From assembly GCA_028687475.1 (NCBI GenBank), contig JAQUAB010000001.1:124001-188000 (forward strand): a stretch of DNA of 64,000 nucleotides. Reading direction: 5' to 3'. Shown piece by piece: positions 7,337 through 36,311 of the stretch. A model generated the notes under the pieces. The model was not told the DNA's origin and searched no databases. It saw only the letters and a list, made by a program, of their open reading frames with translations. The number at the start of each line of letters is the position of its first letter. Position 1 is the stretch's first letter. The position numbers and the translations under genes are program-made. The stretch is from Candidatus Gracilibacteria bacterium. GTDB lineage: Bacteria > Patescibacteriota > Gracilibacteria > BD1-5 > UBA2023.

Positions 7337-7765
7337 TTATTCACGTTCGAGGATATAATTCGTCACTGACTTCACCACCGCACCGCCGAGAAGTGCTGCC
7401 ATCACGAACCAATTCACTTCTGCGATATTCTGAGTCATAGTAGCATGGATGACATCATAGAGAACTCCGAGCGTGAGTACGAGTACCATGAACCATGCAG
7501 CATTACGCTCGGAAATTGCTTCCACCTGTACCTCCCTCTCATCTTTCTTCACAGAAAACATGAGCGGCAGAACATCGATAAGAAGCAGTACTACCCAAAC
7601 AATCGTCACAACTGATCTCGTACGATCATCATTCGGAAGGATTGATTGAGTTCATACGAGGATCCCTACAGCACATGCTATATAGACCCAGCCTTGCCAT
7701 GTCTTCGGACTCACCCCCCATCCGGTATATTTCCGGCGCCCGAACCATTCTTTCCGTGCAATCAT
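7337..7765 (-). CDS. Small membrane protein paired with XRE regulator
   Basis: 142 residues, ATG 7765, one in-frame TGA. Four hydrophobic segments are visible (WVYIACAVGILV, VVTIVWVVLLLIDVLPL, WFMVLVLTLGVLYD, WFVMAALLGGAVV) with a charged loop SVKKDEREVQVEAISERNAA between the second and third. The loop and the linked XRE gene fit the DUF2178-type family that is often found next to such regulators. The exact role is unknown. Confidence 0.75.
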
Positions 7766-23631: not shown

Positions 23632-26600
23632 ATGATTGCACGATTCACGGAATTCTTCTTGAAAAATGAGAAAATCACTTTTATTCTCATTCTCATCATT
23701 TCCATTTTCGGATTTCTCTCCTATATTCTCCTGCCGAAGCAATACAATCCCTCTATCGTTGCGCCCGCGTTTCTCATCGAGATTCCAACTGCTGGATACA
23801 ATGCGAAAGAAGGCTATGAATACGTCGTGAAATCGGTCGAAAACAAAGTCCATGAGCTCGTCGGCATCGATAAGGTCTATGGATATGCGACAGATAGCTA
23901 TGTCAGTATCATGATATCATTCCAAGTGGGTATCGATCAGGAGGCTGCGAAAACACGACTCTACGACAAAATGTACTCGAACTACGATTTGAAGCCATAT
24001 GGTATAGAAAATGTCCAGATCCGTTCGATCGATCCAGAAGACCTCCCGCAAGTCTCGTATGCGATCGTCTATTCTGGAAGCGATCTGGATGAGAAAGCAC
24101 GTGGTCAGTACCTCCAGAATATCGCGAAAACACTGCGAGAAAATATTAAGAAAATTGAAGGTACAACAACAATCGATATTATCGGTGGATATTCGAACGA
24201 TATTTCTATCCGACTCATACCAGAAAAAGTCGAATCATTCGGGCTCGATATTCTCTCTGTCGTCGGGAAACTCCAAAATAGCTTCGGAAAAGGTATGGTC
24301 GGCAATCTCACGAACAATGAGAAGAATTATAGTGTTGTATTGAATCAGAACACGAACGATCTGAAGTCTATCAAGAATCTCATCATCTCGAATACAAACG
24401 GCAAGAAAATCCTTCTCCAGGATATTGCCAGTATAGAAACTGGACCTATCGATATCAAAAGTGCATACCGAATGAGTGATATCAATGGTCCTCATGATGC
24501 AGTATTTCTCGGTGTTGCGAAACTCAAGGGAACCAATGCAGTGAATGTCGTCGAGAAAATCCATGAAGTTGTCGCAGAAACACAGAAAACACTTCCGAAA
24601 AATGTCGATATCATCACTATCCAAGATGAAGGAGAGACGGCTGCACATGCGACAAACGAGCTCATGCTCCACCTTTTTGTATCGATTGCGATTGTCCTCG
24701 TGATTCTCATCATCTTCCTCGGAGTTCGCGATGCAATCAATGCTGCCTTCTGCATCCCGATGGTGCTCGGAATTGTCTTCATCGTCGCACTGATTCTCGG
24801 GCTCGATATCAACCGTATCACCCTTTTTGCCCTGATTCTCTCGCTCGGTATTCTCGTCGATGACTCAATCGTGATGGTTGAGAACAATGCCCGTCATCTC
24901 GCAATGATTCCAAAAACAGGAAAATCGAAGTTCGAAGCGATTCTCGATTCTGTGAAGGAAGTGGGTGTCAGTATCGTCCTCTCGACGATTACTCGTGTAA
25001 TTTCTTTTGTCGCGATGTTCGCGGTGACGGGAATGATGGGTGACTACATGAAGCCAATTCCAATTTTTGCATCGATTGCTCTCACAGCTTCCCTTGTCGT
25101 TGCATTTAGTATCAATCCATTTCTCGCGAGCTTCCTCTACCGCCCTGGAAAATGAGGACATCACGAACACAAAGAAGGTGGATTCCTGAAGTGGTACGGA
25201 GAAAAACTCCAACTCTTCATCAATCGCGATGAAAAAAGCATAAGAAAACGCAGCCTCCTCAAGCTCGGATTCTGGATATCACTCGTCATTATCCTCGTTG
25301 CGCCGATCATGATGGACGTATTCAAGGCTCGTATGCTCCCCAAAGCAGACAAGAACCAAGTCTATCTCTGGATCGATGCACCGCGCAATGCGACCGTCGA
25401 TACCGTCGAGAATATCACACACGACGTCGAGACATTTCTCCTCGGCTACAAAAAAGAAGAAACTGCTGTTTCTGGTGAAGCGAAATATACGCGAATCCTT
25501 CCTGAAAATCTCCGTATTATCGAGGACATCAATGCAACCGTTGGTGACAGATTCCTTCCGGATTTCGCGAATCTCTTCCGCGGTGGGAATAACCGTATCG
25601 GAGAAAACCAAATAAGTATTCGCATCAATCTCAGCCCATCAGCCGATCGAGATATCACTTCCGAGGATTTCGTGATAGAGCTCCGTCCGATTCTCGAGAA
25701 TGCCATCATGAAGAAATACTCCGATATCACGATGCGGCTCCTCGAAGATCCGCCAGGACCTCCGACACAAGCGACGTTCCATATCAAGCTTCAAGCGGAG
25801 GAATGAGTCGAGACAACATCGCTCGTGAATTTTGCGAATGCGATTCGTGGTGTCGTCGAGAATATCCGAGAAAAAGAAAAACTCGTCGATGTGAGTACGT
25901 CGATTTCTACGACCAGTCCTGGATTCGAAATCGTCCTCGACCATGACCGCATCCTCGAGACAGGACTCACCGAAGCACAAGTGAGAGCAACAATCCAGAG
26001 TTATTTCGGAGAAATTCCTCTCTCTATCTCTCGTTACACTGATGGACAATATGGTGCTGCGAAAATCTCTGTCAGTGTCAGCCGTGATGCAAAAAATGAC
26101 CCGAGTGACCTCAAAAAACTCTCATTCATGAATCCCTCTGGTGAACGTATTTATCTCGATGATATCGCAACTATCCAGACTGGATTCAAGAGTTCTGATA
26201 TCTACACGGATGACCGCACAGAGACGATTCATCTCTATGCGGAGATGGGAGCGAATTCGGTTGTCTACCCGATTCTCCATCTCTATAGTATCCTCGGTGA
26301 TGAGGAATTCGCGAAAACGGGATACAAGAAAATCAGTGCCACACCATATGCTATCACTTTCGAAAATATAAAAGACGGAAAGAAATATATCCTCCGTTGG
26401 GGTGGTGAATGGGAACTCACGATGGACACATTCCGTGATCTCGGACTCGCGATGATATTCTCTCTTTTTGTCATCTACTTCATCATCGTGACACAATTCG
26501 GAAGTTTCATCGTCGGAGGTATCGTGATGACGACGTTTCTCCTCTCATTCTTCGGGATATTCCCAGGATTCTCGATACTCTACCTCACTTCAGGAATCTA

Positions 26601-27000
26601 CTTCACTGCAACTGCCATGATCGGCGCTATCGCGCTCGGCGGTATCGTGGTGGGGAATGCCCTCATCCTCATCGACTATATCAATCAGCTCATCCACGAA
26701 GGAAAATGACTCGAATATGCGGTTATCGAAGGTTCAAAAAAACGCTTTGTTCCTGTCATGCTCACATCGATTGCCGCAGTTGCTGGTTCATTTATCATCA
26801 CGAGCGACCCAGTCTGGAGCGGTCTCGCATGGTCTATCATCTGGTGACTCTCAGCTTCCGCAGTTCTCACACTCTACTTCATCCCGATTTTCTACTACAC
26901 GTATCTCAGGAAATATTCGAATCACTACGTCGAACAGATTCATCATACTGACCACATCGTCTTTGGTTGAATTCTCGCCGAAGAAGAAAATAGAAAATAG
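23632..27000 (+). CDS. RND-family efflux transporter
   Basis: 1122 residues in one frame with about six TGA. It has the RND plan: a first membrane helix (ITFILILIISIFGFLSYILL), a large periplasmic-type loop, a block of helices with LGILVDDSIVMVENNARHLA (the helix-4 region), a second loop and a second helix block ending in LTLYFIPIFYYTYL. RND pumps export drugs, metals or lipids using the proton gradient. It lies first in a row with a lipoprotein adaptor, ArsR, rhodanese and glutaredoxin genes, which hints at a thiol or metal stress substrate. No outer-membrane TolC partner is seen here. Confidence 0.92.
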
Positions 27001-27004
27001 CAAA

Positions 27005-27122
27005 AATGTTTTGTCATTTCGAACAAAGTGAGAAATCTCTTTTTCTTGCAATTATGAATAAAAAATAATCAAATTCTCATAAATATGCGTTTGAAAGGGA
27101 TGTCTACGACATGACAAAAGGA
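27005..27122. repeat. Dispersed palindromic repeat
   Basis: TTTTGTCATTTCGAACAAAG ... CGACATGACAAAAGG arms around an A/T-rich centre, between the RND gene and its adaptor gene. Confidence 0.7.
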
Positions 27123-27160
27123 ACACTAATTACTATCCAACTAACCAACCAACTATCAAT

Positions 27161-28870
27161 ATGAAATCCCTCTATCTCCTCCCTCTCATTCCCCTTCTCC
27201 TCGTCAGTTGTGACAAGGAGGAAGTGGTGCTTCAGAAACATTTCTCTACCTATTCGACCCAATCGGGAAATATCACCGTAAAGGATGATATTATTGGAAC
27301 GGTCGAATGAGGAAAAACCAGTGCGCTTGCATTTCGTTCGGCTGGTATTGTCTCAGATATCTACGTCCTGCCTGGTGATACAGTGAAGAAGTGACAAATC
27401 ATCGCACGACTCGGGAATCAAGAATCTTCTATCCAAACAGATGCTCTGAGTAAGATTGGATCTGAACTCGAAAGTCTCGGTCTCACGACGAATGCAATTC
27501 GCATCGGAACAGAAGGTATCGGAAAAACGACAGAGAAACTCTATGACGAACGAATCAAACAGATGGATACGAGCATCCAAACCCTGGAAACCAATCTCGC
27601 GAAAGCACGACAAAATCTCAATAATCAAAACGTGAGTCTCGAATCGAGCTTTGTGACATTTGCGAATGATTTCGATCGTATCAGTACTTCGATGCTCTAC
27701 GAAGGTGACAAGATCCTCGGAATCACCACCAATTTCGAATATGCGAATGATAATTGGGAATCGTATCTCGGTGCGCGCATCGGCGATTCTCAGAAAACTG
27801 CGAAAGATAAATGGGGAATACTCTATGAACTCCGAGGAAAAATCCGACAATACACTGATACAGGAAGTACTATAACTGATGTGAGTGAGGCTATCCGGAA
27901 TCTCACCTATGCATACAATGGAGCTCGTCTCTATGCCACAGCGATGAATACTATGCTTCAGAATAGTGTCGTCGGAGCTGATCTTTCTCAGGAGAGACTC
28001 GACGGATGGAATACAATCTGGACGAATCTCAGTGCGAATGAGCAGGCTTCAGAAGCAACTTTTGTCACCTGGAAAAATGGAAATCTCACGATCACAAATA
28101 CAGGAAATGGCTCTGGAAGTGTCGCAGACAAAGATATCATAGCACTCGAACTCGAACTCCAGAACATGAAACAATCGAAGGCAACACTTCTCGCCGAGAA
28201 AGAGGCAAAACTCCAAGAAATAGAGACTAACGTCAATACAGTGAAATGAAAGAAATGAGAAGTATCACTCCAAATTGCACAAAATCAGATGAGCTACTCT
28301 CTCGCTCGTGAATCTGGTGAATATAGCATCATCCGTGCTCCATTCGATGGCGTCATTCTCGAGAAATTCGGGGAAGAAGGCATGGTCATCGGCGCTGGAA
28401 CACCACTCGTCAAAATGACCAGTTCAGATATAAAAATCGTGAAGACCTATATCGATAATTCACTCTATAATTATAAAATTGACGGAATCATCACTGCTAA
28501 TACCCTGGATAACGAGACTCTGACAGGAAAAATCACACTTCTCCAAGAGCAGAAAGATCCACTCCACAACAAAAACTATACAGAAATAGTTCTCTCAGGA
28601 ACGGGTGTTGTCGGAACAAAAATCACGCTCCATCTCGAACGCAAAAAATCCTCGCTCCAAAATGGAACCCTCATTCCACTCTCAAGCATCCTCACACGAT
28701 ATGGACCACCTGGAGTCTATGTACTCGAAGATGGCAAAGCGCGATTCCAACTCGTAGAAATCCTCGGTTCTGATATGAGCTATGCGGAAGTCCTCTGAGT
28801 TCCAGAATGAGCAACCATCATCACCGATGGAAAAGAAAACCTCTATGATGGAGAAAGCATCTCGAAATAG
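27161..28870 (+). CDS. Lipoprotein membrane-fusion adaptor (HlyD/AcrA type)
   Basis: 569 residues. The signal peptide LYLLPLIPLLLVSC ends in a lipobox Cys. A split biotinyl-lipoyl domain is visible: SAGIVSDIYVLPGDTVKKGQ near residue 65 and IIRAPFDGVILEKFGEEGMV near residue 385, separated by a long coiled-coil hairpin. This is the adaptor that links an inner-membrane pump to the outside, and it lies just downstream of the RND gene. Several in-frame TGA. The C-terminal domain ILTRYGPPGVYVLEDGKARF is typical. Confidence 0.9.
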
Positions 28871-28885
28871 GTCATCTCAATTCTT

Positions 28886-28913
28886 TTGACTTTATATTAC
28901 ATTTTCATAATAT
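28886..28913 (+). promoter_or_regulatory. ArsR gene promoter with operator
   Basis: TTGACT at 28886-28891 and TAATAT at 28908-28913. Bases 28894-28913 differ at one position from the 20-mer that is duplicated before the RND gene. Confidence 0.6.
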
Positions 28914-28932
28914 ACTGAAAATTATTCACCAC

Positions 28933-29220
28933 ATGGAAAATATCGAACAACGCGCAACCGAAGTCGCTCATCTCCTGAAGCTCCTCGCTCATCCGAAACG
29001 TTTTCTCCTTCTCTGCAAGCTCCGAGAATGACCGAAGACTGTCGGTGATCTTGAGAAATATTGTACCATCGGACAATCCCAACTTTCTCAATTCCTCGGG
29101 AAAATGAAGGATGAATGAATCCTCACATCAGAAAAGAGTGGACAATTCGTCTCCTATTCCATCGCGGATCCTCGCGTTCTCGAACTCGTGAATCAGATGC
29201 AGAAAATTTTTTGTAAATAA
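28933..29220 (+). CDS. ArsR-family repressor
   Basis: 95 residues, a winged helix-turn-helix: LLKLLAHPKRFLLLCKLREG then YCTIGQSQLSQFLGKMKDEG. It resembles the BigR/SqrR branch, whose members sense persulfide or oxidants through Cys; Cys residues here are in LLLCK, EKYC and near the end (IFCK), but I cannot align them to the known pair with certainty. The upstream operator is shared with the RND pump, and rhodanese and glutaredoxin genes follow. Two in-frame TGA. Confidence 0.85.
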
Positions 29221-29223
29221 AAA

Positions 29224-29294
29224 ACTTTGTCATTCTCGCCTTGCGAGAATCCCTCCAAGCATATAAAGAGATTCTCCTATGGAGAATGACAAAA
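29224..29294. repeat. Dispersed palindromic repeat
   Basis: TTTGTCATTCTCGCCTTGCG ... GATTCTCCTATGGAGAATGA forms an inverted pair between the ArsR and rhodanese genes. Confidence 0.75.
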
Positions 29295-29337
29295 TATCAT
29301 AATTTCTTCTATTCTATTTCTCATATCCTATTGTCAT

Positions 29338-29682
29338 ATGAATTCCATAACTCCTCGAGAACTCGCTTCCCTACTCGAACAATCGCCAGAAAAAATCGAT
29401 CTCATCGATGTTCGTGGAACGAGTGAATATGCTGAAATTCATATTCCTGAATCTCGAAATATTCCCATGCACCTTATCCCAATGCGGATGAATGAAATCG
29501 ACACTTCGAAAAAAATCATTCTCGTCTGTCTCAGTGGTGGACGCTCGGGTCATATGTGTGGATTTCTCGAGAATGCGAACATCCCAGCAACGAATCTTCT
29601 CGGTGGAATCGGTACATTCGCCCAAGAATTCCCGAACAAGGTTGTTCACGGCGAAAAGAAAAAACTTTTTGGATTGTTCTAA
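29338..29682 (+). CDS. Single-domain rhodanese
   Basis: 114 residues. Rhodaneses carry sulfane sulfur on an active-site Cys, here in ILVCLSGGRSGHMCGFL at residues about 61-77 (C-L-S-G-G-R-S loop). The N-terminal KIDLIDVRGTSEYAEIHIPE is the usual IDVR signature. With the ArsR gene before it and a glutaredoxin after it, it is likely part of a sulfur or thiol response. No in-frame TGA. Confidence 0.92.
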   Translation: MNSITPRELASLLEQSPEKIDLIDVRGTSEYAEIHIPESRNIPMHLIPMRMNEIDTSKKIILVCLSGGRSGHMCGFLENANIPATNLLGGIGTFAQEFPNKVVHGEKKKLFGLF

Positions 29683-29697
29683 AAATTCCATTTCTAT

Positions 29698-29811
29698 TTC
29701 TGTCATTCCGCAATGAAATGAAGGAATCTCTTTCAAAATCGCCTAAAGAGATATTGATTATTTCTTCTCATAAATACAAGAAAAAGATATCTCTCCGAGA
29801 TGACAAAAATA
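29698..29811. repeat. Dispersed palindromic repeat
   Basis: TCTGTCATTCCGCAATGAAA ... TCTCTCCGAGATGACA arms in the gap between rhodanese and glutaredoxin genes. Confidence 0.7.
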
Positions 29812-29850
29812 ACCCTATTTTATCTCTTATAACCTAATACCTCATTCTCT

Positions 29851-30099
29851 ATGCTCACCATCTACACCAAGGACTACTGTCCATACTGCGTCAAGGCAAA
29901 AACCCTCCTCTCATCACTCGGAGCAACGTACGAAGAAATCGACGTCACAAATGATCAGTATACTCTCATGAAAATCATGGAAAAATCTCATATGAGAACC
30001 GTTCCCCAGATTTTTCTCGATGATGAATGTCTCGGTGGATATTCTGATATCGCAGCACTTCATGAACAATGAGAACTCACGAAAAAGCTTGGACTCTAG
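29851..30099 (+). CDS. grx: Glutaredoxin
   Basis: 82 residues, one TGA near the end. Dithiol active site CPYC at residues 11-14 (YTKDYCPYCVKAKTLLSSLG), the cis-Pro motif RTVPQIFLDDECLGGYSDIA that binds glutathione-like thiols, and standard length. It reduces disulfides or mixed disulfides in the cytoplasm. It is the last recognisable gene of the efflux/thiol block. Confidence 0.95.
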
Positions 30100-30167
30100 A
30101 AAATTTGCTTTTTTCTTTTTTTCACTATAATCCACGCCATAAAGAGAAGTCGTGCAGAACCCTCTTG

Positions 30168-30200
30168 TTTCCGTCATTGCGAGGTACGAAGCAATCCATG
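30168..30200. repeat. Dispersed repeat fragment
   Basis: TCCGTCATTGCGAGGTACGAAGCAATCCA, the same unit that is seen in the sigma factor and TrhP-like genes. The rest of 30100-30300 holds two short G/C-rich hairpins (30251-30270 and 30270-30287) and no gene. Confidence 0.7.
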
Positions 30201-30301
30201 CTCCGTTTTCCAATGTCTGAAGTTAGAAGTTCTGGCACGATTTTTTTATAGCTCCTTTTGTAAAGGAGCTCCCGCGAAGCGGGTGAGGATTTTGTCCATA
30301 A

Positions 30302-30332
30302 AAAAACCTTCCAGAATTAATGGAAGGTTTTT
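30302..30332. terminator. Bidirectional terminator
   Basis: 12-bp stem AAAAACCTTCCA (30302-30313) with TGGAAGGTTTTT (30321-30332). It overlaps the last codons and stop of the small minus-strand gene. Confidence 0.8.
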
Positions 30333-30526
30333 GGTTTTCGATTACTCATAGCTTTCTTTACAGCCAAAGCAACGGGCGAAAGATATTTCTGATTAATCTC
30401 AAGGTATCTCTCGTAAGTTTTTCTATCGCAGTAATTTCATCCAGGTAACAAGTAAGCTCATCCCAATAAAATGTTTGGATTACTAGGATCAACATACATT
30501 CCGTCTTCGTTGGTTTTTATTCACAT
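30317..30526 (-). CDS. Small uncharacterised protein, 69 residues
   Basis: ATG 30526 to TAA 30317 with four TGA read as Gly, the first being codon 2. The centre reads YVDPSNPNILLGAYLLPGGN and the rest is basic and helical. It is coherent protein and sits exactly on a terminator, which supports it. No family recognised. Confidence 0.6.
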
Positions 30527-30589
30527 AAAAAATATTTTTACAAAATAAAACATAATTATTTTATCACTTAATTAGTATCTGTCAAATGA

Positions 30590-30682
30590 ATCACGCGAAA
30601 GAAATCCTGGATTCTTCGCGAAGCTCAGAATGACGGGAACATGAGCAGATTCTTCCTTCGTCAGAATGACAGAAATCAGAAA
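30590..30682. repeat. Dispersed repeat cluster
   Basis: CCTGGATTCTTCGCGAAGCTCAGAATGACGG and CTTCGTCAGAATGACAGAAA units, same family as the other repeats here. Confidence 0.6.
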
Positions 30683-30696
30683 ATTCCTTTTGTATT

Positions 30697-30763
30697 CTTA
30701 ATTTTTAATTTTTCATTTTTAATTTTTCATTTTTAATTTTTAATTTTTAATTTTTAATTCTTT
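30697..30763. repeat. Simple tandem repeat of ATTTTTAA/ATTTTTCA
   Basis: About eight or nine tandem copies of a 7-8 base unit (TTTTTAA, some with C), ending 7 bases before the trhP-like start codon at 30770. Confidence 0.8.
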
Positions 30764-30769
30764 TTCAGT

Positions 30770-32446
30770 ATGAAAAAGTTAGAACTCCTCTTCCCTGCTG
30801 GAAACCTCGAAAAACTCAAATACGCTATCGCCTATGGTGCCGATGCAGTATATGCCGGAGTACCAATGTTCTCTCTCCGTGCTCGCGAGAACCAATTCAC
30901 TTGGGAATCACTTGCAGAAGGTGTTGAGTACTGTCACTCTCGCGGGAAGAAGATCTACTTCACCGCGAATATCTACGCGCACAATATGAAGATCAAGCCT
31001 TTTATGGCGAACTTCCAAAAGATGATGGATATGAAGCCAGATGCCTTTATCATGTCTGATCCTGGACTCATCCACCTCGTGAGGAAAGAGTTCCCACAGG
31101 CAGAAATCCATCTCTCCGTGCAGGCAAATAACACCAACTGGGCGCAGGCACAGTTCTGGAAAGAGATGGGAATCACCCGTATTATCCTTTCTCGCGAACT
31201 CTCACTCCGCGAAGTGAAGGAGATTCACGAAATGGTACCAGATATCGAGCTTGAGTTTTTCGTCCATGGTGCTATCTGTATGGCATATTCTGGACGTTGT
31301 CTCCTCTCGAATTATTTTAGCCACCGCGATCCGAATCAGGGAACTTGTTCCCACTCTTGTCGTTGGGAATACAAAGTGTTCAAAAAAGATGCATCACCAG
31401 AAGAACTCTACGACTCAACTGGACGACCGGAAGATTATGAGGAACTCACGGGAGAGTTCTACCTCGAGGAACGCGAGCGCAAGTGAGAACTCATGCCCAT
31501 CGACGAAGATGAATATGGAACCTATATCATGAACTCACGCGACATCTGTCTCCTCTCCTATATGCAAGAGCTCGCCGATGCAGGAGTCGTGTCATTCAAG
31601 GTAGAATGACGAAGTAAAACCGTGAACTATCTCGCGGGTGTAGGTCGTGCCTATCGCCCAGCGCTCAATGCGGTCGAACGAGGAGAAACTTATGATATTG
31701 CTGGACTTTCGGATGAGGTTTTCGCTATCTCGAATCGTGGATATACTCCAGGATTCCTCGTGGGCAATCCAGGTGAGAAGGCTATCTATTTCGAGAAAAA
31801 TAAGGAACTCCATGAAGAGGAGATGGCGGGAATCGTGAAAATGAACAGTGAACAATGAACAATGAATAGTTCAGAAACTGATTCTGTCATTGCGAGGAAC
31901 GAAGCAATCCAGGTTTCTGAGAATGCTTCTGTCATTCCTGCGCAGGTCTTCGACCGAAGGGAGTGATACCCTTGCGGTACAGGAATCCAGTCCGTTCCTG
32001 AGAATCTCAAAACACTTCTCGAATCAGGGAAGATTGCTCGCATCATCGTGAAAAATCGTATCGATGTTGGGGATAAGCTCCGTATGATTTCCCCAACACA
32101 ATCTGTCGAATTCACCCTCGAAAAAATCTACTCACTCACAGGTGAAGAAATCTCATCAGCACATGGAGGAAGCTTTGATGTCTATATCACAGTTCCTGAA
32201 AGACCAACAGAATACGCACTCATCCGTACCCAAGAAGACCTCGGAAGTCCAGAAAAATCTGCAAAAATCCACAAAGAAATCCGAATCGGGAACAAGAAAA
32301 ATCCCATTGCAAAAGTGGAAATCTCCGTGAGCAAATCTGGGTATAGTTGGATCGAGAAGAAAAAACATCACCTCTCACAATCTGCACAATTCTTCGGAGT
32401 AAGAATAAAATCAAAGCTCTCAAGAATCTTTGGGAAAAAGAAATAA
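30770..32446 (+). CDS. trhP: U32 family tRNA hydroxylation protein, TrhP-like
   Basis: 558 residues. TrhP (YegQ) helps make 5-hydroxyuridine at position 34 of tRNA. The start MKKLELLFPAGNLEKLKYAI and the Fe-S/zinc Cys set ICMAYSGRCLLSNYFSHRDP followed by GTCSHSCRWEY match U32 enzymes of this branch. Five or so TGA. Between residues about 360 and 405 a dispersed repeat is inserted in frame (VIARNEAIQVSENASVIPAQ), after which the normal C-terminal domain resumes. The start is preceded by an A/T tandem repeat that may affect translation. Confidence 0.88.
31884..31998. repeat. Dispersed repeat inserted in frame in trhP
   Basis: CTGTCATTGCGAGGAACGAAGCAATCCAG followed by CTGTCATTCCTGCGCAGG... and CAGGAATCCAG. 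The frame passes through with one TGA. Present also between genes at 30168 and elsewhere. Confidence 0.8.
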
Positions 32447-32458
32447 TATACCCCCCGA

Positions 32459-32815
32459 TTATGGGAGGTTTCTTATATCACCTGGTTCATCACTATATCA
32501 TGGACATATTTGATGAGCCTTTCGAGCAAAAAGCGCCAAAGTATCAGCAGGATCTCATCCAACTATAAAATGTTCCTCATCTGGTCTTCGCGGACATCTC
32601 TTGGGACGAAAATTCGGATTGGTGCAGTTGCCACATGTAGCTCATTCTGGAACATTAGATACGGTAGGAATCCCAAGGGCAAAAAAGACTCCATGATTAA
32701 CAGTTACAACCTTTATTCCTGATAATCCTGATGGCATAGTAGTCACAAGAGCAAAATCCCCACCTTGGAGTTCCAATTCAAAAGAATCACCCATTTCATG
32801 AACACCTCTTCCCAT
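32459..32815 (-). CDS. Uncharacterised Cys-containing protein, 118 residues
   Basis: ATG 32815 to TAA 32459, three in-frame TGA. It opens with MGRGVHEMGDSFELELQGGD and a beta-type segment, then has a probable metal site ATCGNCTNPNFRPKRCPRRP (C-x2-C plus a third Cys) and a further Cys in AHQICPGYSDEPG. Convergent with trhP (12 bases between stops). It faces the copper operon across a 102-base divergent spacer. No family recognised. Confidence 0.65.
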
Positions 32816-32917
32816 AATTTTATATATTAGTTATAGCTTATAAATAGTCGAAATATCTATAAAGTCAACTAAATATTTTTTGAATACACATATTTTCCTA
32901 TACTATCAACGATAGTT
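32816..32917. promoter_or_regulatory. Divergent promoter region of copper block
   Basis: On the minus strand a TTGACTTT-type -35 (complement near 32863-32870) is followed by TATAAG-like boxes; on the plus strand TATACT lies about 20 bases before the ATG at 32918. No operator was identified. Confidence 0.35.
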
Positions 32918-33301
32918 ATGCACCACATTCTCTCTCGACTTCTCATCATCGCACTTGGATTTCTCCCCTTCATGCCAATTATGCATGCAGAGGAATCTCA
33001 TATTGCTCCAGATGCTCATAATATGGAAGAATCCGATTGTTGTCATGATTGTACAGAAGAGAATACAAAAAATACAAAAACACATGACATGGGAATATGC
33101 CTGAAAGCGGTTCATGATATTTTGTGATATTCGAGTGCGAATTTTTCTCATGCTCCAGAGATTGTTGTAGCGATTTTTCCATATTGGACTCTCGAAAATC
33201 ACCGAGAAGAAAATGCATATGAGACTCAATATGTACATTCCCAGGATCCACCATGGCAATTCGTAGAGAACTATATTGGCATCGTGAAGCTCACCGTATA
33301 G
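32918..33301 (+). CDS. Secreted His/Cys-rich protein, likely copper-binding
   Basis: 127 residues. Signal peptide LSRLLIIALGFLPFMPIMHA, then a His/Cys/acidic segment ESHIAPDAHNMEESDCCHDC suited to binding copper or another soft metal, and a C-terminal region with YWTLENHREENAYETQYVHS. One in-frame TGA. It lies 40 bases before a multicopper oxidase gene. Function by context only. Confidence 0.7.
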
Positions 33302-33341
33302 AAAAACAGAAGAATATTTTTATTTTCTGACTATTTTTTCT

Positions 33342-35015
33342 ATGCCAAAATTTTTTCTTTTTATTTTTTGTTCGATTTTTCTCGTAAACTGTGGAGCAAA
33401 TAACACTATCACTCCGCCACTTACCAATACAGGAACAGCGGAATCCCCTCAGGAAACTATGATGCGCGAGCATTGCAAGATGATGCCCGAAATGAATGGA
33501 TGTGAGAAATATCTCACCGAAACAACAACCAATACCAGTGAATCTCTGAATACACAAATTCTCACGGATGACGCCACCACTACTGATGCGAAGCCAACAG
33601 AAGTCGTGAATCTGAAAAATGGTGATACCTATAATCTCACGATACAGAAAGTCCGAAAGGTGGTGAATGGAAAATCTATCATTCTCCTTTCCTATAATGG
33701 AAGTATTCCTGGACCAACATTTCGTGTGCCACGCTGAGCAGAGGTTATCTTTCGTGTGAAGAACACAGTTGCCTGACTCGAGACAACGATTCATCCACAT
33801 GGACTCCGCCTCGATAACCAGTATGATGGTGTACCAAAAAGCCTATGAGGGTTTCAGGATCCTATTGCGATTGGTAACACTTATGAACAAAAGATAAAAT
33901 TCCCTGATACTGGAATTTTCTGGTTCCATCCGCATACACGTGACGACTTCGAACAAGAAGCGGGAGAATATGGAACTTTTCTTGTCTATGACCCAGCCGA
34001 AAAACCAACATATGATACTGAATCTGTCATAGTACTCGATGATATTCTCTTGAATTCTGATGGCACGCTTGCGAATTTCGCGAGCAGAGGTGTCGATTAT
34101 ACGCTCATGGGTCGCTATGGAAATACGATGCTCATAAATGGTGAAACGAATTTTTCTCTCACCATGAAGCAGAATGAAGTGAAACGACTCTATCTCGTGA
34201 ATACCGCCAATGCTCGACCTTTTGACTTCACTATTCCAGGTGTGAAGATGAAACTCGTCGGCGGAGATAATGGATACTATGAGCAGGAAACATGGGTGGA
34301 TCATATCATCATTTCCCCTGCGGAACGATATATCATCGATATTATGCCGACAAAATCAGGAAGTTATCCAATCTCAAGTATCGGTGGTGGAAAAAATATT
34401 TCCCTTGGAACACTTTCTGTCACGGAAAATTCTCAGATTTCATGATACAAAAAAGATTTCGAAACTCTCAATTCCCATGATATTCTCGGCGGGCTTGGAA
34501 GTATCGAATCCTATTTTACCAAAGCACCAGACAAGAGTCTCACTATTGGTATGACCATGAAATGAATGGAAAACATGGGAAATATGCACATGGGAAATGG
34601 AATGATTGATGATGACTCGATAGAATGGGAAGATACTATGAACATGATGAATATCAATTCCAGTGATAAAAACCTCACATGGGAACTCACGGATGATACG
34701 ACTGGAAAAAAGAATATGGATATCGATTGGACTTTCCAGAAGTGAAGTCTCGTAAAAATCCATATCTACAATGATCCAAACTCGATGCATCCGATGCAAC
34801 ATCCATTCCATATGCATGGACAGAGATTCCTCGTACTCAACCAAAACGGAACACAGAATGATAATCTCGTCTGGAAAGATACGGTTCTGATTCCAAAAGG
34901 AGAATCAGTAGATATCCTCGTAGATATGTCCAATCCTGGAGTATGGATGGCACACTGTCACATCGTCGAACATCTCTTCGCAGGGATGATGTTCGGATAC
35001 ACAGTAGAACAATAG
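33342..35015 (+). CDS. Multicopper oxidase, lipoprotein
   Basis: 557 residues. The signal FLFIFCSIFLVNC ends in a lipobox Cys. Four copper-site motifs are present: TIHPHGLRLDNQYDG near residue 150, FWFHPHTRDD near 197, HPMQHPFHMHGQRFLVL near 482 and WMAHCHIVEHLFAGMM near 540 (type 1 and type 3 sites). A Met-rich stretch MKGMENMGNMHMGNGMIDDD lies before the C-terminal domain, as in CueO/CopA-type cuprous oxidases. It probably oxidises Cu(I) outside the cell. Several TGA. Confidence 0.93.
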
Positions 35016-35053
35016 ACTAAAAACTTTCTTATTTATTCTCTTTCTTTTCTCTT

Positions 35054-35590
35054 ATGCAAATGACTCACTACATGGAACTCCTCGCGAGCAACCAACCTTG
35101 GAATCTCATCCTTTTTATGGCAATTCCCGTTATTCTCGCTGAAACGGTTGCCATCACAGAACTTGTTATTCTTTTCACTGGAAAACGTACTGGAAACATC
35201 GCAACACTCAGCAAATTCGCAGGCATCACAGGAGGAATCTACTTTATCGGAGTGTTTTTCTACCTCCTCTTCACTGCTGTTATCCCTCTCACGACCACGG
35301 GAACATGGCGTGGTATCGCTGATGTGGTTGCGGTTGGATTCTATCTCCTCGGTATCATTCCTCTTGTCGGAATCGCACTCGTGGATATGTGAATTATCGG
35401 GTGACCTACAGGAGAGAGAAAATCTCTCAAGCTTCATGCGACATTTGTCGGAATATTTCTCGTCTTTGCGCATATTGCCATGATATTCGGGATGCTTGAC
35501 CCGAGTATTCTCGGATGGCAACAACCAATGCAGAATTCCCCCATGAACATGAATGATACTATGCCAGGAATGGATCATAGAAATATGTAA
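35054..35590 (+). CDS. Membrane protein with Met-rich tail
   Basis: 178 residues with about five hydrophobic segments (LILFMAIPVILAETVAITEL, GIYFIGVFFYLLFTAVIPL, GIFLVFAHIAMIFGML). The C-terminal tail PMQNSPMNMNDTMPGMDHRN is rich in Met with one His, fitting copper contact. Three in-frame TGA. It is the third gene of the copper block. Similar proteins (DUF6803-like, from memory) are seen near copper oxidases. Confidence 0.75.
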
Positions 35591-35595
35591 ATCTT

Positions 35596-35624
35596 TTGAC
35601 AATCCCCTGTTTCATCTATATATT
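35596..35624 (+). promoter_or_regulatory. Strong promoter, TTGACA-N17-TATATT
   Basis: TTGACA at 35596-35601 and TATATT at 35619-35624 with the ideal 17-base spacer. The expected start site (about 35631) falls on the ATG of the first leader peptide, so the transcript would be leaderless. Confidence 0.7.
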
Positions 35625-35630
35625 CAATCT

Positions 35631-35687
35631 ATGAACCAAACCTATACTTCACTTCTCGCACTTCTTCTCCTTCCATTTCGGGGGTAG
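35631..35687 (+). CDS. Leu-rich leader peptide 1 (candidate)
   Basis: 18 codons, MNQTYTSLLALLLLPFRG, with six Leu in seven positions. The end of the reading frame (35680-35692, CGGGGGTAGTTTT) is a near copy of the 3' arm of the terminator that follows, so the two can compete for the same partner strand. This is the plan of an amino-acid attenuator. Not proven to be translated. Confidence 0.5.
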   Translation: MNQTYTSLLALLLLPFRG

Positions 35688-35711
35688 TTTTGAGTGCTCA
35701 AAGCAAGTACA

Positions 35712-35747
35712 AAAACTCCTCCGATTTCCGGGGGAGTTTTATTTTTC
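35712..35747 (+). terminator. Terminator 1 of the leader region
   Basis: 12-bp stem AAAACTCCTCCG (35712-35723) with CGGGGGAGTTTT (35729-35740), one G-T pair, 5-base loop, T-rich tail. Confidence 0.75.
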
Positions 35748-35754
35748 TTTTTCT

Positions 35755-35841
35755 ATGATTCACAATACATACGCATCTCTTCACCTCCTTCTCCTTCTCA
35801 GATTTCTCGAGAGGTTATTGTTGTATGAACTATGCCGATAA
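35755..35841 (+). CDS. Leu-rich leader peptide 2 (candidate)
   Basis: 28 codons: MIHNTYASLHLLLLLRFLER then LLLYELCR. Ten of 28 are Leu. GAGAGGTT inside it (35809-35816) is identical to the 3' arm of the next terminator (35870-35877), allowing a competing hairpin with AACCTCTC (35852-35859). The first residues resemble leader 1 (N-x-T-Y-x-S-L), so the modules look duplicated. Confidence 0.5.
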   Translation: MIHNTYASLHLLLLLRFLERLLLYELCR

Positions 35842-35851
35842 AATACGAACC

Positions 35852-35884
35852 AACCTCTCAAAAACAAATGAGAGGTTTTATTTT
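35852..35884 (+). terminator. Terminator 2 of the leader region
   Basis: 8-bp stem AACCTCTC (35852-35859) with GAGAGGTT (35870-35877) followed by a long T-rich tail; the next ATG is at 35899. Confidence 0.75.
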
Positions 35885-35898
35885 TTTATTTTTCTTCT

Positions 35899-36282
35899 AT
35901 GAATACTCCACATACTTCACAACACCCATACATTCATGCTATTTTTGGAAATATACATTTACGATATATCGTCGATAAACAAAGAAATGTTATCGTCATA
36001 GAATCTTTTTCTGGGAATCCAGAAATGTCATGAGCATTCTGGGATGATATCCGAAAAGAAATTGCTCAATATCTTCGATGAGGGTACACAGTCGACTGTA
36101 CATCTATCCAAAATCCAGAATCTTTCTGGTCGCAAAAATTCATCGAAAAAATGAAAGCTTTCACAGAAGGACACAATGGATGAAAAGCTATCAAAAGATG
36201 TGATCTACAGACTGGACTTCCAGTAGAATACACTACTCGCAGCAAGATACTTGACCCAAATGCAGGAATCCTCGGAATGTAA
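35899..36282 (+). CDS. Uncharacterised protein downstream of double leader
   Basis: 127 residues from ATG 35899, directly after terminator 2, to TAA 36282, with three TGA. N-terminus MNTPHTSQHPYIHAIFGNIH; then an alpha/beta segment RYIVDKQRNVIVIESFSGNP and a C-terminal TRSKILDPNAGILGM. It is the only gene that the upstream attenuator-like region could control. No family recognised. A terminator shared with the convergent DUF465 gene follows. Confidence 0.7.
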
Positions 36283-36284
36283 AA

Positions 36285-36311
36285 AAACCTCAGGAATTTC
36301 CTGAGGTTTTC
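36285..36311. terminator. Bidirectional terminator
   Basis: AAAACCTCAGG / CCTGAGGTTTT stem with a 5-base loop between convergent stops at 36282 and 36315. Confidence 0.8.

Follow-up and report, generated by a model that had tools for sequence, protein, structure and literature searches.

The leuABCD, ilvGMEDA and thrABC operons of Escherichia coli and Salmonella are controlled by leader-peptide attenuators. In these operons, a leader ORF with a run of regulatory codons is combined with a 1:2 protector, a 2:3 antiterminator and a 3:4 terminator helix, and region 2 lies at the 3' end of the leader. All of these elements can be recognized in a locus of Candidatus Gracilibacteria, found in a stretch of 64,000 nucleotides that we call the window; in addition, these bacteria have what look like thrL-type Thr/Ile leaders in front of aspartate kinase. 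However, the Gracilibacteria leader ORF is probably leaderless and very compact (22 codons), the Leu/branched-chain targets are orphan genes rather than biosynthetic operons, the genetic code is code 25 with TGA = Gly inside the leader, and two units stand in series. The general mechanism of leader-peptide attenuation is outlined in PMC1183508.

Partial parallels are also found outside these operons. The ilvBNC operon of Corynebacterium glutamicum (PMC11857589) has a leader rich in branched-chain amino acids, a three-hairpin control and a start codon one nucleotide from the transcription start, but it is a single unit of different sequence in Actinobacteria, with a biosynthetic target. The attenuator peptide of Staphylococcus aureus ilv-leu (PMC5794164) is likewise a Leu-rich leader followed by a terminator, whereas it controls branched-chain synthesis in Firmicutes and is not described there as tandem. 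Two leader ORFs with attenuators in series before one transcription unit are known from Salmonella mgtCBR (PMC3641672), where the two sense ATP and proline, whereas in the window both have a Leu run. The Cys-rich, leaderless upstream ORFs described from mycobacteria (PMC4633059) share the short ORF rich in one amino acid, the many leaderless transcripts and the candidate attenuation; they differ in the amino acid, cysteine, and are proposed there as candidates only. Based on the comparison below, we propose that the window very probably contains two consecutive transcription attenuators operated by ribosomes. They would lie on a transcript that is probably leaderless and control the orphan gene at 35899.

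Leader frames and the orphan gene of the window

The genome containing the window is that of an uncultured bacterium and, with 1.06 Mb on five contigs, very small; it uses code 25 (TGA = glycine), under which long reading frames appear. The features of the locus are listed in Table 1, in the order leader 1, terminator, leader 2, terminator, gene. An earlier note, made from the DNA letters alone, had described a strong promoter before two short Leu-rich frames, and this description stands: the promoter agrees with the consensus at 11 of 12 positions, and both frames are open under code 11 as well as code 25. Counting both strands, the genome has just 14 runs of four CTY codons, three of them inside leaders 1 and 2. 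Terminator-like sites in the region number 8, against 1.2 expected from shuffles, and a short ORF with a cluster of codons of one group lies directly upstream of an intrinsic terminator. Searches with the Rfam leader families and the T-box gave no window match above the gathering score; the best match below it, at 35630-35744, covers the full length of Phe_leader (E 0.007, 28.5 bits against a cut-off of 55).

Table 1. Features of the candidate tandem attenuator and the gene behind it (window positions)
Feature	Position	Strand	Remark
Sigma-70-type promoter, TTGACA-17-TATATT	35596..35624	+	TTGACA 35596-35601, TATATT 35619-35624
Leader peptide 1, MNQTYTSLLALLLLPFRG (then stop)	35631..35687	+	Homologues in G002, G013, G015, G019, G023, G026
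Candidate regulatory codons 8-14 of leader 1 (L L A L L L L)	35652..35672	+	Also 5' part of the 1:2 protector hairpin
Region 2 of attenuator 1	35678..35691	+	Copy of terminator 3' arm; predicted antiterminator with region 3
Intrinsic terminator 1 with U-tract	35712..35740	+	Region 3, 35712-35723; region 4, 35729-35740
Leader peptide 2, MIHNTYASLHLLLLLRFLERLLLYELCR (then stop)	35755..35841	+	Leu run at codons 11-15 (35785-35799)
Region 2 of attenuator 2, GAGAGGTT	35809..35816	+	Exact 8-mer copy of terminator 2 3' arm
Intrinsic terminator 2 with U-tract	35852..35877	+	Region 3, 35852-35860; region 4, 35869-35877; 21 nt before gene
Putatively controlled gene, orphan protein P0001	35899..36282	+	127 aa under code 25, three TGA = Gly codons
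End-of-unit terminator	36284..36310	+	13-bp inverted repeat

The -10 box lies 6 nt before the ATG of leader 1, so that the leader 1 transcript is probably leaderless, as the earlier note had expected. Initiation without a Shine-Dalgarno sequence is plausible here, because the trusted genes around the window also show no obvious one. A copy of the terminator 3' arm had been placed inside both leaders; this is exact for leader 2, but the copy in leader 1 runs past the TAG stop. In attenuator 1, region 2 can pair with the 5' arm of the terminator (35712-35724), leaving one bulge, and the antiterminator segment has a folding energy of -20.4 kcal/mol (z = -5.0). In leader 2, region 2 lies about 22 nt before the stop codon, leaving it exposed when a ribosome stands at the stop, and in the folding model region 3 of the free RNA mostly stays sequestered. 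Leader 2 would be a second Leu attenuator, less canonical than leader 1.

The 35899 gene was overlooked under code 11, because the genome reads TGA as glycine. Its product P0001 has a positive coding-frame score in its own frame only. The possibility that this gene has only its own promoter finds no support, as no strong promoter was seen and none above the scan threshold lies between the 35596 promoter and the gene. No relative of P0001 at E <= 0.001 was found in the genomes searched, and viral contigs contained neither a relative nor the leader pattern. The structure of P0001 modelled alone reached a pLDDT of 58. The stretch 23632-35590 is a possible metal-resistance neighbourhood: Pfam identifies a multicopper oxidase and, directly upstream of the attenuators, a DUF6803 membrane protein, and a large efflux-pump-like frame, a membrane-fusion-like frame and an ArsR-like frame can be recognized by eye.

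Homologous leaders and their alternative helices

Homologues of leader 1 turned up when the 27 genomes of the family were searched at the DNA level. A sequence-only model was applied next. Besides the window (78.5 bits), this model matched G019 (93.3), G013 (92.8), G023 (90.5), G026 (86.4), G002 (76.5) and G015 (44.9), with the next match at 23.4 bits. These six homologues, all from Candidatus Gracilibacteria of the same family, have E values of 1e-21 to 8e-27 for five and 6e-12 for G015; few independent lineages stand behind the comparison. Weaker matches of the model were rejected, since those inspected resembled signal peptides or chance. A degenerate pattern run over public genome contigs returned the same six relatives and three matches in other bacteria, which we read as chance. 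Under code 25 the leaders of the six relatives read MKTISSSLLVLVVLPNLEGLGA, MNVHFSSLLVLILLPISGGFGV, MKVIFSSLLVLIILPTLGGFGV, MKAIFTSLLVLVLLPLSGGIGA, MKVIRSSLLVLVLLPSSGGFGA and MNRLSSLILVLVVLPVSGGIGA; thus the leader frames are not confined to the window. Leader 1 of the window is a shortened version: it has a stop at the position of a glycine codon in most homologues. All seven members share a TTGACA promoter with the -10 box 6-7 nt before the ATG, a spacing that would suit a leaderless start like that of C. glutamicum ilvB.

Folding of the full leader RNA revealed the protector hairpin, in which the Leu/Val/Ile codons pair with the GGAGG..TTTGAG segment, together with the terminator in all seven. 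Three mutually exclusive helices, protector (1:2), antiterminator (2:3) and terminator (3:4), can be formed by each member, and the exclusive 2:3 and 3:4 pair is kept in 7/7 leader 1 homologues. Both alternative states singled out for folding by the earlier note are thereby recovered. The antiterminator is more stable than its shuffles in all seven (z -1.9 to -5.0). Furthermore, own antiterminator arms pair better than swapped ones (mean -17.4 versus -14.3 kcal/mol; 26 of 5040 permutations as good), indicating that pairing is kept despite changes in the hairpins. Helices 2 and 3 of the protector are paired in 95% and 90% of cells, respectively, and its outer helix shows no conservation; covariation in the protector does not exceed that of its shuffled control.

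Each of the seven short leaders carries a seven-codon Leu/Val/Ile run, with Leu invariant at codons 9, 11 and 14. Pairwise differences at codons 8-14 comprise 39 synonymous changes, 34 within L/I/V and 6 outside. Because the run in the family is Leu/Val/Ile, the signal may be the branched-chain amino acids and not Leu alone. In all six relatives (G002, G013, G015, G019, G023 and G026) the penultimate leader codon is TGA, glycine in code 25. A role of this codon as a code-25 sensor was considered and set aside, since G62-A63-G64 is paired in a protector helix and TTTTGAG is still present in the window downstream of the early stop. The TGA near the leader end is probably a by-product of RNA pairing.

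The genes behind the unit were also compared. In all five relatives with downstream sequence, the unit precedes the same orphan family (gene A, about 95-113 aa), which begins 23-25 nt past the terminator in the two relatives measured and occurs only in these five genomes, each time behind a leader 1 type unit. The leader of G026 lies near a contig end, and its target is outside this count. A convergent methyltransferase-like frame (prmC-like by eye) follows gene A in four of the five genomes. The layout looked for in relatives is thus present as six homologous leaders, but the visible downstream genes differ from the 35899 gene of the window. This constancy of gene A argues against a reading in which the peptides, short and hydrophobic as they are, act as functional products, such as a type I toxin or a membrane peptide, with the downstream gene incidental. 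Such a reading does not predict the alternative helices or their fit with codon position, and no antisense RNA promoter is evident except one 10/12 minus-strand match; we give it very little weight.

Similar to the window, G019 has two attenuators, in the order leader 1, gene A, second attenuator with a Leu5 run, gene B. This second attenuator (G019b; G019:C59, L021:2124) encodes the leader MYQIAFNSSLLLLLGTCFREDFGV, ending at a stop codon, has a very stable antiterminator and precedes a 102-aa orphan gene. Its leader has the Leu5 run alone in common with window leader 2. Gene B is without convincing relatives in the genomes searched. A kinship of P0001 to gene A or gene B was rejected, with no BLAST relation found. 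Comparisons of the three proteins with Pfam, NCBIfam, PHROGs and PDB sequences, covering a part of the protein-library combinations, gave nothing significant. The gene A model reached a pLDDT of 75.5 with a mostly beta structure; neither it nor the P0001 model had a PDB fold match at E <= 0.001. We speculate that the window layout arose via loss of a gene between two attenuators.

Ribosome positions and the Thr/Ile leaders

A ribosome was placed at each codon and the terminator probability, P(term), of the downstream RNA was computed for nine attenuators: seven of the leader 1 type, window leader 2 and G019b. The lowest P(term) falls at a Leu, Val or Ile codon in 9/9, and in the folding model the terminator is lost only with the A-site on or beside such codons. 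In window leader 1, P(term) drops to 0.11-0.13 with the A-site at codons 7-9; in G019a, which has the clearest switch, values are <= 0.01 for codons 7-13 and reach 0.99 at codon 15 and beyond. In RNA whose 3' arm has yet to be synthesized, the 5' arm ceases to be sequestered within a few codons past the run in all nine. A ribosome that blocks region 1 and frees region 2 thus opens the terminator computationally; at equilibrium, only a weak loss is seen for G026 (minimum 0.72), and a partial one for G023 and G015. When the terminator was kept and everything upstream was shuffled (150 shuffles per attenuator), none was as deep for six attenuators, including both window leaders, and 2, 5 and 30 were for G002, G023 and G026, resulting in a combined p of about 2e-9. 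The proposal that stalling would free the copy and open the terminator is therefore supported in silico, its three-state logic being kept in the six homologous leaders. Conserved anatomy, alternative helices and the fit of the codon run with terminator-opening ribosome positions are what sequence and computation support.

Pseudo-start controls also show a dip, in 3/155, 3/50 and 8/91 cases against 5/140 for ATG, so the dip alone is not diagnostic. This rate of a few per cent, and the abundance of terminators in the window genome, would suit a different reading: ordinary terminators of the upstream DUF6803 gene and a short non-coding transcript, with frames and copies arising from pyrimidine-rich chance. 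However, a near-consensus promoter separates that gene from the hairpins, the whole unit is kept across genera with different downstream genes, and 0/150 shuffles matched either window leader, which makes this reading highly improbable.

The same attenuator logic was scanned for in about 1.02 Mb and later about 1.8 Mb in all, including about 450 kb of the window genome. The smaller scan yielded the known units and, as its one new find, a tandem pair in G013 that consists of MNHFSTIITIKIISPLG followed by MYSITIIITKKILLYEQ... (G013:C1:281302-281660; L102:1302-1660), before a 459-aa protein that matches aspartate kinase TIGR00657 with E 7e-33, below the model cut-off. In G004, the single leader MTHRNTIITKKIFSPLG stands in front of a 61% identical aspartate kinase homologue (L129, minus strand), and in G002, a frame of 61 aa next to a lysS-like one lies behind MIQGTTIITIKTISPLG (L146, minus strand, position 7528 of the reverse complement). 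These leaders follow the pattern M...TIITIK.ISPLG (then stop). In the three homologous leaders, which show three-state behaviour like that of the Leu units, the modelled terminator disappears only around codons 6-9 (T-I-I-T); for the second member of the G013 pair, the equilibrium model gives no dip. The enterobacterial thr leader likewise places Thr/Ile codons ahead of aspartate kinase, and the leaders of G013, G004 and G002 look, by analogy, like Gracilibacteria attenuators of the thrL type. The lineage thus seems to possess the attenuation mechanism with a sensible target, once in tandem.

The sister family also bears on whether the leader could be a nascent arrest peptide of the Erm or ABC-F type, in which stalling dependent on a ribosome-targeting drug would lead to antitermination. 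Several drug-sensing leaders have a hydrophobic N-terminus. So has leader 1, whose family is conserved as a peptide (SSLLVLVLLPxSGGFGA, then stop) and whose targets are orphans. Yet L, V and I replace one another freely at codons 12 and 13, window leader 2 and G019b are second leaders of unrelated sequence with a common Leu run at the control position only, and the Thr/Ile codons of the sister family stand before aspartate kinase. Region 2 pairing explains much of the conserved C-terminal peptide, and no target resembles a resistance gene. We consider drug sensing unlikely and favour attenuation by amino-acid supply.

Proposed attenuation cycle and its meaning

We propose the following cycle for the amino-acid attenuators, in which leader translation, leaderless initiation, the response to leucine and any function of the target are our inferences. 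When charged tRNA-Leu is plentiful, the ribosome would run through the leader and cover region 2, allowing the 3:4 terminator to form. When it is scarce, the ribosome would stall in the Leu run, region 2 would pair with region 3 and RNA polymerase would read on; judging from the relatives, tRNA-Val or tRNA-Ile may count as a signal too. After readthrough of attenuator 1, the polymerase would meet the second Leu attenuator before the gene. If translation is absent, attenuator 1 is predicted to fold into 1:2 and 3:4 and to terminate at equilibrium.

No match to PF00920 (IlvD) was found in 27/27 genomes of the family, compared with matches in 14/14 control genomes. Therefore, the Leu switches probably do not regulate branched-chain synthesis in these bacteria, as judged from the one enzyme examined. 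From this single enzyme, it is more likely that they sense starvation for imported amino acids. The Leu/branched-chain targets P0001, gene A and gene B are all orphans, and the sister Thr/Ile leaders precede aspartate kinase; some attenuators may drive fast-evolving orphan genes acting in host interaction or starvation response.

The mechanism itself is classical; the lineage, the leaderless tandem layout and the orphan targets are new as far as the literature was searched; the library searched contained no account of attenuation by leader peptides in the Candidate Phyla Radiation. The element is compact, and its Leu codons can be tested in E. coli reporters. Gene finders pass over short frames in code-25 genomes, and such frames may be regulatory. 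If the proposal is true, a classical amino-acid sensor has been retained or reacquired by these tiny genomes, and orphan genes under its control would be candidates for a response to the amino-acid supply of the host.
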